DNA from: Candidatus Neomarinimicrobiota bacterium
GTDB lineage: Bacteria > Fidelibacterota > Fidelibacteria > Fidelibacterales > Fidelibacteraceae
Assembly: GCA_021157965.1 (NCBI GenBank)
Contig: JAGGVO010000012.1
Location: 62,001 to 126,000 of the forward strand
Direction of reading: 5' to 3'
DNA: 64,000 nucleotides
Shown here: positions 10,701 to 16,471 of the stretch, in pieces
How positions within the stretch are numbered: position 1 is the first letter of the stretch
Layout of the letters: each line of letters begins with the position of its first letter
The notes under the pieces: model-generated
The model's database searches: none
The model's input: only the letters and a program-made list of their open reading frames with translations
Told to the model about the DNA's origin: nothing
Translations under genes and position numbers: made by a program

Positions 10701-11183
10701 TTCAATGATCAACAGATCCACACCTCCGTCTGTCAGTCCCAGAATCTGCGGTTTATAGGCTATGTAGATGTCATCGGGACTTACATGATTCAAGGAGGGC
10801 ATGCGGCTTCCGGGTCCCACCGATCCGGCAACCAGGCAAAAATTCCTCTTGTCCTTCATTGCGTCGACTGCTTTTCGAGCCCGTTTCGCCCCTTCCAGAT
10901 TCAGTTCGTAGGTCCGGTCATCCAAACCGTGTTCTTTCAAGACAAGGGTATTGGCTCCAAAGGTATTTGTCTCAATAATATGTGCACCGGCATCGAGATA
11001 CTGCCGGTGAATGGATTCAATGAGATCCGGGCGGGAAACATTCAGAATCTCAGGACATCCTTCGTAACCGGAGTAATCCTCCGGCATCAGGCCGGCATCG
11101 TCAATCAGGGTCCCCATGGCTCCATCTATAATACAAACACCCCGGGTAAGATACTCATGAAAGGCTTTTCTGCTGATCGTCAT
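7797..11183 (-). CDS. metH: Cobalamin-dependent methionine synthase
   Basis: Methylates homocysteine from methyltetrahydrofolate through methylcobalamin, in the cytosol. All four modules are present in 1128 residues. The homocysteine domain has zinc ligands Cys 222 (NCATGP) and Cys 288/289 (GGCCGS). The pterin domain begins near 335 with LLIGERANANG. The B12 cap and Rossmann domains carry GDVHDIG, with His 724 as the lower cobalt ligand. The C-terminal activation domain (about 865-1128) contains RISPGYPMAPE and LLHPKAKYF. The activation domain implies reductive reactivation with S-adenosylmethionine. The start is ATG 11183 with GAGGTGG just upstream. It is transcribed alone, divergently from the phosphorylase gene. 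Confidence 0.96.
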   Translation of the reverse strand: MTISRKAFHEYLTRGVCIIDGAMGTLIDDAGLMPEDYSGYEGCPEILNVSRPDLIESIHRQYLDAGAHIIETNTFGANTLVLKEHGLDDRTYELNLEGAKRARKAVDAMKDKRNFCLVAGSVGPGSRMPSLNHVSPDDIYIAYKPQILGLTDGGVDLLIIETAQDLLHVKTLVRLILDVAPDIPLIVSVTIESNGTMLAGSDIPAVVTALSPYPLSALGLNCATGPVGMRSHVRLMAELSPFPVFAMPNAGLPVHKKGRFVYELEPETMASEIEVFVRDMGASIVGGCCGSTPRHIRCISEKVGTGRKIPFRKISRETAVSSLYQNQAIRVKPAPLLIGERANANGSRAFRKALLREDWDAMMSIVNAQEQEGAHVVDVSLSVVGRDEKKDTVYFFRRLNTECRLPLQIDSTDPVVIETALKHCAGRCIVNSANLENGEETFLSMANLCKRYGAMLICLTIDEEGMAKTAERKSAIAGRMIALAEKAGLRREDLFIDTLTFTLGSGEDADRNTAVETLRAVKDIRDSFPEVHLLLGVSNVSFGLKPRIRHMLNSVMLYEAVRAGMHAAIIHPGKIMPLSDIPESLLALCRKLIYNDTTAGDPLIHLIQAGGENIPNVDFTTQVELTPEENLQKKLLHGDSAGLEKLLMVLKDKKSPLNIINDILLPGMKEIGELFGSGKMQLPFVLKSASVMKKAVDILKPFMDKNEKMIQGTIVLATVRGDVHDIGKNLVDVVLSNNGFIVHNIGIRQSPEAVLNAVQTIKPDALGLSGLLVRSTLEMKNTLMVLKEHHITIPVLLGGAALTESFVREELAPVYEGMVFYAADAFQGLSILNSLDEKIEAKNIRRDKDKGDKILYKKEGCRKAEISFYDYPSPPFDGVRIRQKIDIDSLVNYLNRKTLFTFQWQLRKGKMSREDYEAFLKQEGEERLREMLCRDEIRESFCPGVVYACCPVRKISEDVLSVHLPGSSESFQLTFPRQKAGECLSAADYYSPHQDGLMPIQCVTLGNEAVRYSRRLYASHDYAEYFFYHGLLMQLTEALAEENHALIRHELGLDKQKAEKHRKPGTFQGIRISPGYPMAPELESQKMILELLKASEIGVSLTSGYQLIPECSTTALILLHPKAKYFNI

Positions 11184-11247: not shown

Positions 11248-11354
11248 TCCGGAATCTTTTCTCAGGGTTTCTCTGATATTCACTCATATTTGGGTGATAT
11301 TTTTCTTGTCACCATCCGTAAACTCCAATAATTTCCCTCGCAAATGGAGGAATC

Positions 11355-13904
11355 ATGAAAAATTTTCGCAGGATAACTGTTCAAAGTTTTGTCCCCGAAG
11401 AGCTTCAGGAGCTGAAGCAATTCAGTTACAACTTATGGTGGAGCTGGAAACCCAATGCCCAGAAACTTTTCCGGACATTGGGGAATGAACTCTGGTATGA
11501 CGTTGAACACAATCCTTTAAAACTTTTAAAATATTTGAGTCAAAACCAGTTCAATACAAAGGCAAACGATCCCGAATTTCTGGACATGATGAAGTCGGTT
11601 ATGGATGAATTCAATCATTACATGTCCCGGAAGGACACCTGGTTTGACAAGACATACCCTGAAAAAAAGGATTTCCTGGTTGCCTATTTTTCAGCAGAAT
11701 TCGGCATTCATGAAAGTGTACCGGTTTACTCCGGTGGTTTGGGGATTTTGGCTGGTGACCACTGTAAAAGTGCCAGTGATCTGGGCATTCCCCTGGTTGG
11801 TGTGGGAATGATGTACAAACAGGGTTATTTCAACCAACAGATAGATGGGGACGGGAACCAGGAGAATATGTATCCAAGTTATGACTTTGGAGAAATTCCC
11901 ATACAACTGACCCGGGACGAGAAAGGAAACCCCCGTAAAATTTTCATCAATTTACCCGGCCGGAAAGTTTATGCCCAGATCTGGCGTATGCAGGCCGGGA
12001 GGACATCCATCTACCTTTTAGATACGGATATTCAGGAAAACCTGCCGGAAGACCGGATTCTTACATCCCAGCTGTACGGTGGAGATCATGAAATGCGGAT
12101 CACCCAGGAACTGCTATTGGGTATCGGAGGTGTCCGTGCCTTGCGTTTACTGGGTTATAAGCCCTCTGTCTGGCACATGAATGAGGGGCATTCAGCCTTT
12201 CTGGTCCTTGAAAGAGTCCGGGAACTGGTTGACCAGGGCATTGCATTCGATGTGGCCAAAGAAATCGTATCCAGCAACTCCATTTTCACCACCCATACAC
12301 CTGTTTCGGCAGGACACGATGCCTTCGATGAAGCACTGATGCATAAATATTTTGATCATTGTTTCCAGAATTACGGATTGGACTGGAATACCTTTTTTAT
12401 GCTGGGGCGGGATGTCAACAAAAACTTCAGCATGACGGTCCTTGCCATGAAGATGGCAAAAAGCTGCAACGGTGTGAGTCGTCTTCACGGTGAGGTAAGC
12501 CGCCGTTTGTGGAGTGATGTATGGAAAGATATTCCGTTATGTGAGATTCCCATTACCCATGTGACCAACGGCATCCACACGGAAACCTGGGTCTCCCGGG
12601 AATTCAGAAAGCTCTATAATGAATACCTGGGTGACGACTGGATTTTAAGAATAGATGATCCCGAGATGTGGAAAACAGTCAACGACATTCCGGCAGGGCG
12701 GATTTGGAATGTTCACAAGACCCGAAAACAGCGTCTTGTGGATGTAGTAAAGCAGCGGATCAGAAACCGGGACCAGCGGAATGGTGTCCCCCAATACATT
12801 ACAGATCGGGCCCTGGAAAACCTGACGCCCGATGCTCTTTTTGTGGGATTTGCCCGGCGTTTCGCTACCTATAAGCGGGCAACCCTTCTTTTCCGGGATA
12901 TTGAACGTTTAAAACGCCTTGTGTCCAACCGGGAAAAACCGGTCATCTTTTTCTTTGCCGGGAAAGCCCATCCTGCAGACCGTCCGGGACAAGCTCTGAT
13001 CAAGGAAATTTACCATATCAGTATGAGTGAACCGTTTCTGGGGAAAATTTTCATCCTGGAAAATTACAATATGACCCTGGCCCGCTATCTTGTTTCAGGA
13101 GTGGATATCTGGCTGAATAATCCCCGGCGTCCCCGTGAAGCCAGCGGTACATCCGGTGAAAAGGTCACCGTAAACGGCGGTATCAATTTTTCAGTCCTTG
13201 ACGGCTGGTGGGTGGAAGGATTCAACGGAAAAAACGGGTGGACCATAGGTGAACCGAAAGAATATGCCAACAACGACATTCAGGACAGTGAGGACAGTGC
13301 CAACCTGTATTATACATTGGAGAATGCCATTATTCCCGAATATTTCGAACGCTCAAACGGGGATCCTTATTCGGAAACCTGGGTCCGTCGTATGAAAGAA
13401 TCCATTCGATCCATAACACCGGTGTACAGCACTCACAGGATGGTGAAGGACTACATGAATAACCTTTATAAACCAGCTTTTGAACACAAGCAACTTCTAA
13501 CTGTTGACAATTATAAAAAAGCAAAAGAGTTGGTTCATTGGAAGCAGAAAATTTCTAATGCCTGGAAGGATGTCTGGGTTACGGAAATCAACCCGGTTGA
13601 AGAATTTATCAATACATTGCACATGCAAATAACCTGTGATGTCATACTGGACGGACTGAATCCCGAAGATGTAAAAGTGGAAGTGTATCTGGTTAAGGAA
13701 TACCAGGAAAATCAACCGCCCGTATCTGTTGTGGAATTGAAACTTAAGGAAAAAAACACCGAAGGAAGATGCGTTTATTCCGGAACGGTGGAAATTCCAA
13801 AAGCAGGGACCTACAGATACAATGTTCGGGTAAGACCCTGGCACAAAGACCTGCTGCACCCCTTTGAAACGGGGATGATCCGCTGGATGCAGATCGTTAG
13901 TTAG
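11355..13904 (+). CDS. glgP: Alpha-glucan (glycogen) phosphorylase
   Basis: Releases glucose 1-phosphate from alpha-1,4-glucans. The 849-residue protein is of the GlgP type with an N-terminal DUF3417 domain (about 1-100, FSYNLWWSWKPNAQ), found in many bacteria and archaea. The catalytic part contains AYFSAEFGIHESVPVYSGGLG and ends in the pyridoxal phosphate site EASGTSGEK with Lys 603. The last 130 residues form an extra C-terminal region without a recognised catalytic motif. The ATG at 11355 has a strong GGAGG four bases upstream. It stands alone, divergent from metH, with its own terminator, so the cell stores or scavenges glycogen-like polymers. Confidence 0.93.
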   Translation: MKNFRRITVQSFVPEELQELKQFSYNLWWSWKPNAQKLFRTLGNELWYDVEHNPLKLLKYLSQNQFNTKANDPEFLDMMKSVMDEFNHYMSRKDTWFDKTYPEKKDFLVAYFSAEFGIHESVPVYSGGLGILAGDHCKSASDLGIPLVGVGMMYKQGYFNQQIDGDGNQENMYPSYDFGEIPIQLTRDEKGNPRKIFINLPGRKVYAQIWRMQAGRTSIYLLDTDIQENLPEDRILTSQLYGGDHEMRITQELLLGIGGVRALRLLGYKPSVWHMNEGHSAFLVLERVRELVDQGIAFDVAKEIVSSNSIFTTHTPVSAGHDAFDEALMHKYFDHCFQNYGLDWNTFFMLGRDVNKNFSMTVLAMKMAKSCNGVSRLHGEVSRRLWSDVWKDIPLCEIPITHVTNGIHTETWVSREFRKLYNEYLGDDWILRIDDPEMWKTVNDIPAGRIWNVHKTRKQRLVDVVKQRIRNRDQRNGVPQYITDRALENLTPDALFVGFARRFATYKRATLLFRDIERLKRLVSNREKPVIFFFAGKAHPADRPGQALIKEIYHISMSEPFLGKIFILENYNMTLARYLVSGVDIWLNNPRRPREASGTSGEKVTVNGGINFSVLDGWWVEGFNGKNGWTIGEPKEYANNDIQDSEDSANLYYTLENAIIPEYFERSNGDPYSETWVRRMKESIRSITPVYSTHRMVKDYMNNLYKPAFEHKQLLTVDNYKKAKELVHWKQKISNAWKDVWVTEINPVEEFINTLHMQITCDVILDGLNPEDVKVEVYLVKEYQENQPPVSVVELKLKEKNTEGRCVYSGTVEIPKAGTYRYNVRVRPWHKDLLHPFETGMIRWMQIVS

Positions 13905-13954
13905 CTCTCGTCCAATATAAATGATAATCCGGAAACAGAAGTTAATAAAAAAAA

Positions 13955-13986
13955 ACGGCAGGCTGGAAAGCCGCCGTTTTTTATTT
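13955..13986 (+). terminator. Intrinsic terminator after glgP
   Basis: ACGGC and GGCT pair with AGCC and GCCGT around a GGAA tetraloop, with one bulged A on the left arm. The hairpin is followed by seven T residues interrupted only by one A. It begins 51 bases past the glgP stop. The A-run in front gives it some activity on the other strand too, but no minus-strand gene ends here. Confidence 0.85.
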
Positions 13987-14019
13987 TATCCCTGATTCCT
14001 AAATCCAATTTTATTTTTA

Positions 14020-14048
14020 TTTTTTTCAATGCTATAAATTTGTATAAT
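14020..14048 (+). promoter_or_regulatory. Possible promoter of the PAS kinase-ROK pair
   Basis: A perfect -10 hexamer TATAAT lies at 14043-14048, 37 bases before the kinase start, in a very AT-rich stretch. The -35 position 17 bases upstream is only a T-run (14020-14025), so the call rests on the -10 box and on location after the glgP terminator. Confidence 0.35.
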
Positions 14049-14084
14049 TAATATATGACAATACATTAAAAAAGGTTCGCCCTC

Positions 14085-15254
14085 ATGACAAAAAACACTG
14101 TCAAGATTCATTATCCATACCGTGAACGGAGCTCGAAAAATGAGCTGAAATTTCAGATATCTCTTTTTGATCAAAAAAATGAGTTTACAAAACCGCTGAA
14201 CTATATTTTGGAGATTGTCGCGATCTTAAATCAGAACCGGCAGATTGTCTATGCAAACGATAAATTTAAAGCATTAATAAATTCTACGGGCGATTCCAGT
14301 GACGTATTTGGATTAAGACCGGGTGAATATTTAAAATGTACCCATGCTATGCATTCAGAGTTTGGATGCGGAACCACGGATTTCTGTAAGTATTGCGGTG
14401 CCAACCAGGCGATCAGGAAGTCTTTAGACGGGAAGCACGAGCTACAGACTTGCCGTATCATGCGTGAAGATGGGGGTGCCTGGGAATTACAGATAAGAAC
14501 CTACCCATTTATTTTTCATGGAGAAAACTTTGTGTTTCTTGCGGCCCTGGATATTAGCCATGAATCCAGACGCCGCGCTCTGGAAAGAGTATTCTTTCAC
14601 GACTTAAAAAATACAGCCGGCAGCATCCGTGGTTTTACTAAAATGCTTGTGAATGACCGGTTTAAACCTGAAAGAAAAACTGAATTTCGGGAGATCTTAC
14701 AACGTTTGGGTTACCAATTGATTGATGAAATTGAATCCCAACAGCAAATTCTGGCGGCGGAGGAAAATATATTAGAATGTAATATAGAAGAAATCCATAT
14801 TCCCGACTTTCTATTCATGTTACGGGAAAATTTTATTCATCTCCCTTTGGCTGAAAACAAAGAAATCAAAATAGACCCTACACCCGATTCGTTTACCATG
14901 CAAACCGATAAAACCCTTTTACGGCGGGTACTTGGTAATTGTATAAAAAATGCCCTGGAGGCGGTTTCCAAAGAGGCCGAAATTACACTAACTGCTACCC
15001 GGAAAGATGAGCAGGTTTCATTTGCAATACACAATCCCGGGGTAATGCCTGAAGCCGTGAAGCGACAGATATTCCAACGCTCATTTTCCACAAAAGGTCC
15101 CGGCAGGGGATTAGGAACTTACAGCATCCGTTTATTCACGAAAAAATATCTAAATGGATCTGTACATTTTACAAGCCAGGAAGATATGGGAACAACTTTT
15201 TACATAACACTTCCTCTTTCCCTGAGAGAAGCACGTGAAAAGAATAGGTTGTAA
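14085..15254 (+). CDS. Sensor histidine kinase with cysteine-rich PAS domain
   Basis: The 389-residue protein has a PAS domain (about 40-160), a phospho-acceptor helix with His 172 in FFHDLKNTAGSIRGF, and a HATPase_c domain (about 270-385) with the N box GNCIKNALEAVS and G box STKGPGRGLGTYSI. Within the PAS domain is a cluster of cysteines: Cys 85, Cys 95 (FGCGTT), Cys 101 and Cys 104 (FCKYCGA) and Cys 123. This pattern suggests a bound metal or a redox switch; I cannot tell which. No membrane helix is seen, so sensing is cytosolic. No response regulator is adjacent. The downstream ROK gene starts 2 bases after its stop, and the two are probably co-expressed. Confidence 0.85.
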   Translation: MTKNTVKIHYPYRERSSKNELKFQISLFDQKNEFTKPLNYILEIVAILNQNRQIVYANDKFKALINSTGDSSDVFGLRPGEYLKCTHAMHSEFGCGTTDFCKYCGANQAIRKSLDGKHELQTCRIMREDGGAWELQIRTYPFIFHGENFVFLAALDISHESRRRALERVFFHDLKNTAGSIRGFTKMLVNDRFKPERKTEFREILQRLGYQLIDEIESQQQILAAEENILECNIEEIHIPDFLFMLRENFIHLPLAENKEIKIDPTPDSFTMQTDKTLLRRVLGNCIKNALEAVSKEAEITLTATRKDEQVSFAIHNPGVMPEAVKRQIFQRSFSTKGPGRGLGTYSIRLFTKKYLNGSVHFTSQEDMGTTFYITLPLSLREAREKNRL

Positions 15255-15256
15255 GA

Positions 15257-16471
15257 TTGAATGCTGAACAAAAAGGCCGTCCCAGTTATTTATATCATTT
15301 GAATCAATCACGTATATTCAGGCTCATCCGGTCAAGCGGAAAAATTTCCAGGAATCAGCTTGCCCGGAAAACCGGTCTGAGTATCCCCACGATCAGCCGA
15401 TCCCTTCAGAATCTGAAAAATTTAGAATTGGTTGTTTCTTCCGGAAGCCGGGAATCCGGTAAAAAGGGGGGGCGCCCGCCGCAACTGTTCCATTTCCCGG
15501 CCACTCAAAATTATGCTATTGGTATAGATCTTGAGAAAGAGACTTTATCCTGTATCCTGGCGGATATGTCCGGGAAAATCCGGGAGTTTATCACAATGGA
15601 AACACCGGCCGGAGCAACGGTGGAGAATGTGAACCAAAGGATCATGCAATGTATCGAGGAGATGCAAAATAAAATACCTTCCAAGGGGCTGTTGAGAGGA
15701 GTGGGATTATCGGTTCCGGGACTTGTCAACAGGCAGGAAGGAATCCTCACGTACTCCCACACCTTTGGCTGGAAAGATATTCCCCTGGTCTCCCTTATCC
15801 GAAGAACAACCCGTATCCCGGTCTTTTTGGATAATGAGGCGAATCTTCTTTCTCTGGGTGAACTCTGTTTCGGATCAGGAAAAATATATAAAAATTTTAT
15901 ATGTATCGATATCCGTTATGGCATTGGATGCGGTATTGTGTATCAGAACAGGCTGTTGGATATCCCCGGGGAGCTGGGACAAATTTGTTTGGATGACCTT
16001 ACGGGAGACAAAAAAGGATTGCCACGATTAACACTGGAAGACAGGGCGTCGGATCATGCTGTTCTGCAAAAAGTCGAAGCAATGCTTCAACAGGGAACAA
16101 CATCCTCATTTCTCAATTCATTTACCGGACCTTTGACACTGGATAAATTCAAAAAGGCGCTGCAAAAAAATGATCAGGCAGCACAGACAATCTTCAATCA
16201 GGCCCTGTCAGACTTGGGTATTGCCCTGGCCTTTCTGGTAAATATCTTTCATCCCGAAGCCTTTATTTTTCATGGTCCGTTGACAGAAAATAATCCTTCT
16301 TTTTATACACGGTTACGGGAAGTCATTGACCATTGCTCACTCAGTCCGTTTTCTGCGACTCTGGATTTAAAACCCGCCTGTTTTCAGAATATGGGAGGTG
16401 CCGTTGGGGCCGTAGCCCTGGTGTTACAAGAACTCCTCAATCTGAACCCTGACTTTTTTTCCAAATCCTGA
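15257..16471 (+). CDS. ROK-family transcriptional regulator
   Basis: The N-terminal winged helix-turn-helix (about residues 18-60, SRNQLARKTGLSIPTISRSL) marks a NagC/XylR-type repressor. The rest is a ROK sugar-kinase fold with LRGVGLSVPGLV and FLDNEANLLSLGE. Kinase function looks lost or reduced: the phosphate loop reads GIDLEKET rather than DxGxT, and the zinc motif with its CxCGxxGC cysteines is missing after GELGQI. It therefore probably binds a sugar or sugar phosphate and controls transcription rather than phosphorylating. The start is TTG at 15257, two bases after the kinase stop; a second TTG 14 codons in is possible. Its regulon is unknown; glgP nearby is one candidate. Confidence 0.82.
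   Translation: MNAEQKGRPSYLYHLNQSRIFRLIRSSGKISRNQLARKTGLSIPTISRSLQNLKNLELVVSSGSRESGKKGGRPPQLFHFPATQNYAIGIDLEKETLSCILADMSGKIREFITMETPAGATVENVNQRIMQCIEEMQNKIPSKGLLRGVGLSVPGLVNRQEGILTYSHTFGWKDIPLVSLIRRTTRIPVFLDNEANLLSLGELCFGSGKIYKNFICIDIRYGIGCGIVYQNRLLDIPGELGQICLDDLTGDKKGLPRLTLEDRASDHAVLQKVEAMLQQGTTSSFLNSFTGPLTLDKFKKALQKNDQAAQTIFNQALSDLGIALAFLVNIFHPEAFIFHGPLTENNPSFYTRLREVIDHCSLSPFSATLDLKPACFQNMGGAVGAVALVLQELLNLNPDFFSKS

Follow-up and report, generated by a model that had tools for sequence, protein, structure and literature searches.

A PAS histidine kinase with a conserved cysteine cluster beside a ROK-family regulator and a glycogen phosphorylase gene in Candidatus Neomarinimicrobiota

In a stretch of 64,000 nucleotides from a Candidatus Neomarinimicrobiota genome (the window), a histidine kinase with five cysteines in its PAS region is followed closely by a ROK-family regulator. 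The reading that we prefer, and hold to be probable rather than certain, is that an orphan kinase sensing redox or metal state shares its transcript with a local regulator of glgP, the nearby glycogen phosphorylase gene. The features concerned are:

14085-15254, + strand: PAS histidine kinase of 389 amino acids (PAS approximately 44-156, H172 of FFHDLKN, ATPase 275-379)
14337-14453, + strand: five-cysteine cluster C85-X9-C95-X5-C101-X2-C104-X18-C123 in the PAS region, complete in 26/26 full-build kinases
15257-16471, + strand: ROK-family regulator of 404 amino acids with an N-terminal winged helix-turn-helix (HTH), without phosphate or zinc motif, TTG start
11355-13904, + strand: alpha-glucan (glycogen) phosphorylase gene glgP, the persistent neighbour of ROK within the genus
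11279-11301, + strand: palindrome TTCACTCA-N5-GGGTGATATT before glgP, candidate ROK operator, found in 6/6 genus genomes
13945-13989, + strand: terminator hairpin 3' of glgP, re-formed in G003 from partly different stem bases
13977-14052, + strand: promoter-like stretch with TATAAT at 14043-14048, conserved upstream of kinase-ROK here and immediately upstream of ROK in G003 and G004

The reading frames of the kinase and the ROK regulator are both open in the window genome (G000) and are separated by 2 bases. Together with the Pfam matches they bear out the first-pass annotation, which had called a kinase with five cysteines in its PAS region and a ROK gene 2 bases after it: both genes are real. 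The kinase matched HATPase_c (PF02518) in Pfam with an E-value of 8.9e-17, and the N and G box residues of its ATPase (N285, N289, G342 and G344) were invariant in 18/18 aligned kinases. The putative phospho-accepting histidine of the dimerisation helix, H172, was invariant in the same 18/18, and HDxxN was present in 24/24; since no HisKA match was found among the Pfam listings for the window kinase, this assignment is based on the motif and the structural model. The AlphaFold2 model (mean pLDDT 84.2, pTM 0.64) retrieved PAS/LOV histidine kinases first in a whole-length structure search, with low TM scores (0.33-0.46); the kinase core of the model alone agreed better, and the HK853 core was among the matches. 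Taken by itself, the PAS region of the window kinase fell under the Pfam cut-offs (PAS_9, 0.088; PAS_4, 0.032), and PAS_9 was matched at E<=1 by 17/18 of the aligned kinases (best 2.8e-7). The strongest 19-residue hydropathy stretch of the window kinase scored 0.94, none being strongly hydrophobic, and values below 1.6 were obtained for 23/24 kinases, G055 reaching 2.04, suggesting that these kinases are soluble and cytoplasmic.

Conservation of the cysteines among kinase homologues had been set as a test by the first-pass annotation, and the cluster withstood it. C85, C95, C101, C104 and C123 were invariant in 18/18 aligned same-phylum kinases, which represent 18 of 20 same-phylum loci, and all five were present in 24/24 once six kinases from another phylum were added. 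All five are likewise present in the two copies left out of the alignment, G019 (with an in-frame TAG) and G093, so that the cluster is invariant in all kinases of full build (20 same-phylum and 6 other-phylum). Judged by this conservation, the cluster is no chance feature. Its pattern was C-X9-C-X5-C-X2-C-X18/19-C, the last spacing being 18 in 12 and 19 in 12 of the 24 kinases measured.

The kinase was present in 18/120 genomes, its own included, and a PAS-only profile found the same 18 genomes among 245 of the window's phylum, with 20 loci in total. A further search covered 124 genomes of the phylum centred on a genome titled Armatimonadetes, which we regard as a separate phylum because none of its genomes is among the 245. 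Nine matches were obtained, and 6/9 were kinases of the same build that kept all five cysteines, one being cut by a contig end. The other three matches, more distant PAS proteins (L145, L146 and L147, the last at 1480-2049), have the first four cysteines at X9-X5-X2 and lack the fifth; one, of 189 amino acids, has no kinase core and two exceed 1000 amino acids. These relatives therefore suggest that the core consists of four cysteines and that the fifth marks the kinases.

The PAS profile gave a single match against solved structures in the PDB, at E 0.098, which was taken as noise, and thus no clear relative. A search of named-organism contigs with the kinase returned two matches to the ATPase part only, both from genomes without a Cys-PAS match at E 0.001, one of these being the genome titled Armatimonadetes, and no kinase match was found on plasmids. 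Among the listed titles of open-licence papers, none dealt with this cysteine spacing or with kinase-ROK pairs.

Selenocysteine at the cluster, prompted by counts of in-frame TGA codons, was rejected, as no stop codon falls at any of the cysteines. The TGA codons lie before the start in L020 and at the gene end in L023, L025 and L029, and L022 is an open frame when read as L076. The stop codons of G093 are at the gene end, and in G019 the TAG truly interrupts the gene in its middle; this five-cysteine homologue (L075, 512-1642), which adjoins an ATP synthase operon, is either decaying or the product of faulty assembly.

According to passages of PMC4601167, NreB of Staphylococcus is a PAS histidine kinase with an O2-labile [4Fe-4S] cluster and resembles the window kinase in being cytoplasmic and in having its cysteine cluster inside the PAS domain, where that of the window kinase also lies. 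It differs in having four cysteines and the response regulator NreC, whereas the window kinase has five and no response regulator on its contig. The same passages describe AirS of Staphylococcus aureus, also a histidine kinase with an N-terminal cysteine cluster, as redox-sensing, with [2Fe-2S], a C-X7-C-X-C-X17-C arrangement that differs from that of the window kinase in spacing and number, and AirR as regulator (PMC4601167). We propose a role as cytoplasmic sensor for the window kinase: its PAS cysteines probably bind an Fe-S cluster or some other metal, and it would signal the redox or oxygen state through phosphorylation of a response regulator encoded at another locus. A cognate response regulator nearby is usual, not required, for sensor histidine kinases; none was found on the window's contig, and the window genome holds 21 receiver domains, none of them on that contig.

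The ROK protein matched Pfam ROK (PF00480) with an E-value of 2.2e-37 and an N-terminal winged HTH (HTH_24) with 2.4e-7; among 120 genomes, the closest ROK by E-value outside the genus was that of G062, 29% identical. The DxGGT-type phosphate motif and the CxCGxxGCxE zinc motif, the latter usual but not universal in ROK regulators, are both absent from the sequence of the window ROK, and absence of the zinc motif is common to the window protein, the proteins of four congeners (the G001 copy has 90 N elsewhere in the gene) and its own-genome paralogue (L010, 452-1648). Four solved ROK regulators, XylR (4ija), Lmo0178 (5f7r), 1z05 and 3bp8, were aligned with it. They are distant in sequence and, like the window ROK, combine an N-terminal HTH with a ROK domain and lack the phosphate motif, as judged by eye, and the zinc cysteines are missing from 4ija as well. 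Because this solved regulator is likewise without the zinc motif, its absence is not decisive for ROK membership. The view that the protein keeps its DNA-binding domain without the phosphate and zinc motifs was thus confirmed by Pfam and by the sequence. The missing motifs are no oddity, given the solved regulators, and no unusual ROK mechanism needs to be invoked. We suggest that the protein is a local sugar-type regulator with a sugar or sugar phosphate as its probable effector, which most likely binds 11279-11301 and would control glgP, perhaps together with the divergent metH.

The first-pass annotation had tentatively tied the ROK regulator to the nearby glycogen phosphorylase and proposed binding regions at 11250-11350 and 13990-14084, and the tie is backed by genus-wide synteny and by a conserved palindrome before glgP. 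The palindrome, TTCACTCA-N5-GnGTGATATT, precedes glgP with 0-1 mismatch in 6/6 genus genomes and falls inside the first of these regions. When up to 3 mismatches are allowed, 11279-11301 is the sole match in the window (0.21 by chance). The remaining 10 matches in 19 family genomes have 2 mismatches each, two of them being in G001, and the backwards control gave 0. Two 25-base stretches stand out as the best conserved in the metH-glgP gap; one contains the palindrome (20/25 columns, five genomes), and the other adjoins the glgP start. On these comparisons it is the best candidate for a ROK operator.

Several observations speak against this part of the preferred reading: the position in a divergent gap, the hairpin fold, the palindrome of G005 and the lack of any copy with up to 3 mismatches in 13990-14084, before kinase-ROK. 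The palindrome might instead serve another regulator, that of metH, or be an RNA hairpin, with the ROK protein controlling something else, for instance its own unit; we consider this possible but distinctly less likely. In its favour, divergent metH adjoins glgP in all six genus genomes, and on the + strand the palindrome is in addition predicted to fold into a terminator-like hairpin (z -3.14). In 12 stretches (up to 1.5 kb) around glgP of genera g2 and g3, neither metH nor ROK was found beside glgP, and because both are missing there, glgP and metH are inseparable by synteny as target of the palindrome. G005 has the palindrome, with 1 mismatch, but yielded no orthologous ROK; glgP of this 84% complete assembly lies approximately 100 bases from a contig end. 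On the other hand, one arm is altered alone both in G001 (TCACTC versus GCGTGA) and in G005 (TCACGC versus GGGTGA), and these single-arm changes speak against an RNA stem, a metH regulator still being compatible with them.

G001-G004 share the gene order metH (divergent), glgP, ROK, HAD-like gene, where metH and the HAD-like gene were named by eye, and among G000-G004 the kinase lies between glgP and ROK in G000 and G001 only. In G002, G003 and G004 (90-95% complete) no kinase match was found genome-wide, though glgP-ROK is kept, and the best match to a kinase remnant in their glgP-ROK gaps (E 0.12) was at noise level. The gap before ROK in G002 (L066, 4062-4785) is of 724 bases and holds no kinase remnant.

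Downstream of glgP there is a hairpin that has a run of T, with a fold z of -5.06 here and -6.88 in L067 (G003); the consensus terminator scan missed it, perhaps owing to a bulge. In L067, a low-complexity repeated intergenic ORF with GFRGSGAQ units occupies 10744-11082. Positions 13977-14052 are identical in 65/76 columns with G003 and also with G004, TATAAT included, and from 14053 on identity falls to 11/35 (G003) and 13/35 (G004). This boundary marks the start of the kinase in G000 and of ROK in G003 and G004. The consensus promoter scan passed over TATAAT because no good first hexamer accompanies it, and the putative promoter is therefore deduced from conservation. The conserved terminator and the shared promoter-like stretch indicate that glgP probably ends alone and that kinase and ROK probably share a promoter, and we infer that the two form one co-transcribed unit separated from glgP by the terminator. 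The kinase would thus share a transcript with ROK yet be dispensable, because close relatives keep ROK without it.

A somewhat unlikely alternative makes the kinase a passenger with no relation to ROK or glgP, its target being a response regulator from some other pathway. The whole-gene presence or absence of the kinase between the promoter-like stretch and ROK would fit such a gene, as would its G+C content, 0.406 against 0.454-0.490 for ROK, glgP and metH, and the many unrelated contexts of its homologues. However, the G+C of the next gene downstream, the HAD-like one, is also low (0.396). The spacing between kinase and ROK is tight in both genomes that have the pair, 2 bases in G000 and 4 in G001, and their kinases are sisters in the tree (100/99) on long branches. 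This is compatible with a kinase already present in the ancestor of the genus and lost two or more times, a count for which the species order depends on a midpoint root. The close spacing leaves room for a functional kinase-ROK link.

The first-pass annotation had proposed a dedicated kinase-ROK pair. This was not upheld: a ROK gene adjoins the kinase in 1/19 further same-phylum kinase stretches (4 to 17 kb), that of the congener G001, and in 0/9 other-phylum stretches (2 to 3.5 kb), so that the adjacency is limited to the window genome and one congener and is not conserved beyond the genus. Other neighbours vary, with the ATP synthase operon in G019 and receiver genes in the stretches L072, L073 and L081; by one BLAST query, a receiver gene was found in 3/28 other kinase stretches. 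The arrangement is local, and direct signalling between kinase and ROK is unsupported.

A more far-reaching reading sees in the Cys-PAS kinases a separate class of metal or redox sensors, spread over at least two phyla, and supposes that one such kinase was wired into the ROK unit of this genus so that redox and sugar state act jointly on glgP; as a whole it seems improbable. Least probable is a true signalling pair in which the redox or metal state of the PAS domain alters ROK directly as a two-input switch on glgP: the spacing kept in G000 and G001 despite only approximately 47% and 45% protein identity by BLAST, and the window's contig without a receiver domain, would suit it, but three ROK-keeping congeners lack a kinase match, 18 other same-phylum and 9 other-phylum kinase stretches lack ROK, and Pfam lists no receiver domain in the window ROK.

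Under our preferred reading of an orphan kinase on the transcript of a glgP regulator, the uncharacterised Cys-PAS kinases are of more interest than the kinase-ROK pair. Should the cluster bind Fe-S or some other metal, they would make up a sensor-kinase class that spans two or more phyla, for the most part has no evident partner gene and offers a signal open to direct assay. The presence/absence pattern provides natural controls: whether or not they have the kinase, the congeners share much the same promoter stretch and ROK gene. Hemerythrin-like genes (by eye) were seen near two kinase homologues (L071, 6598-7005; L077, 6151-6501), a hint at oxygen or iron sensing.
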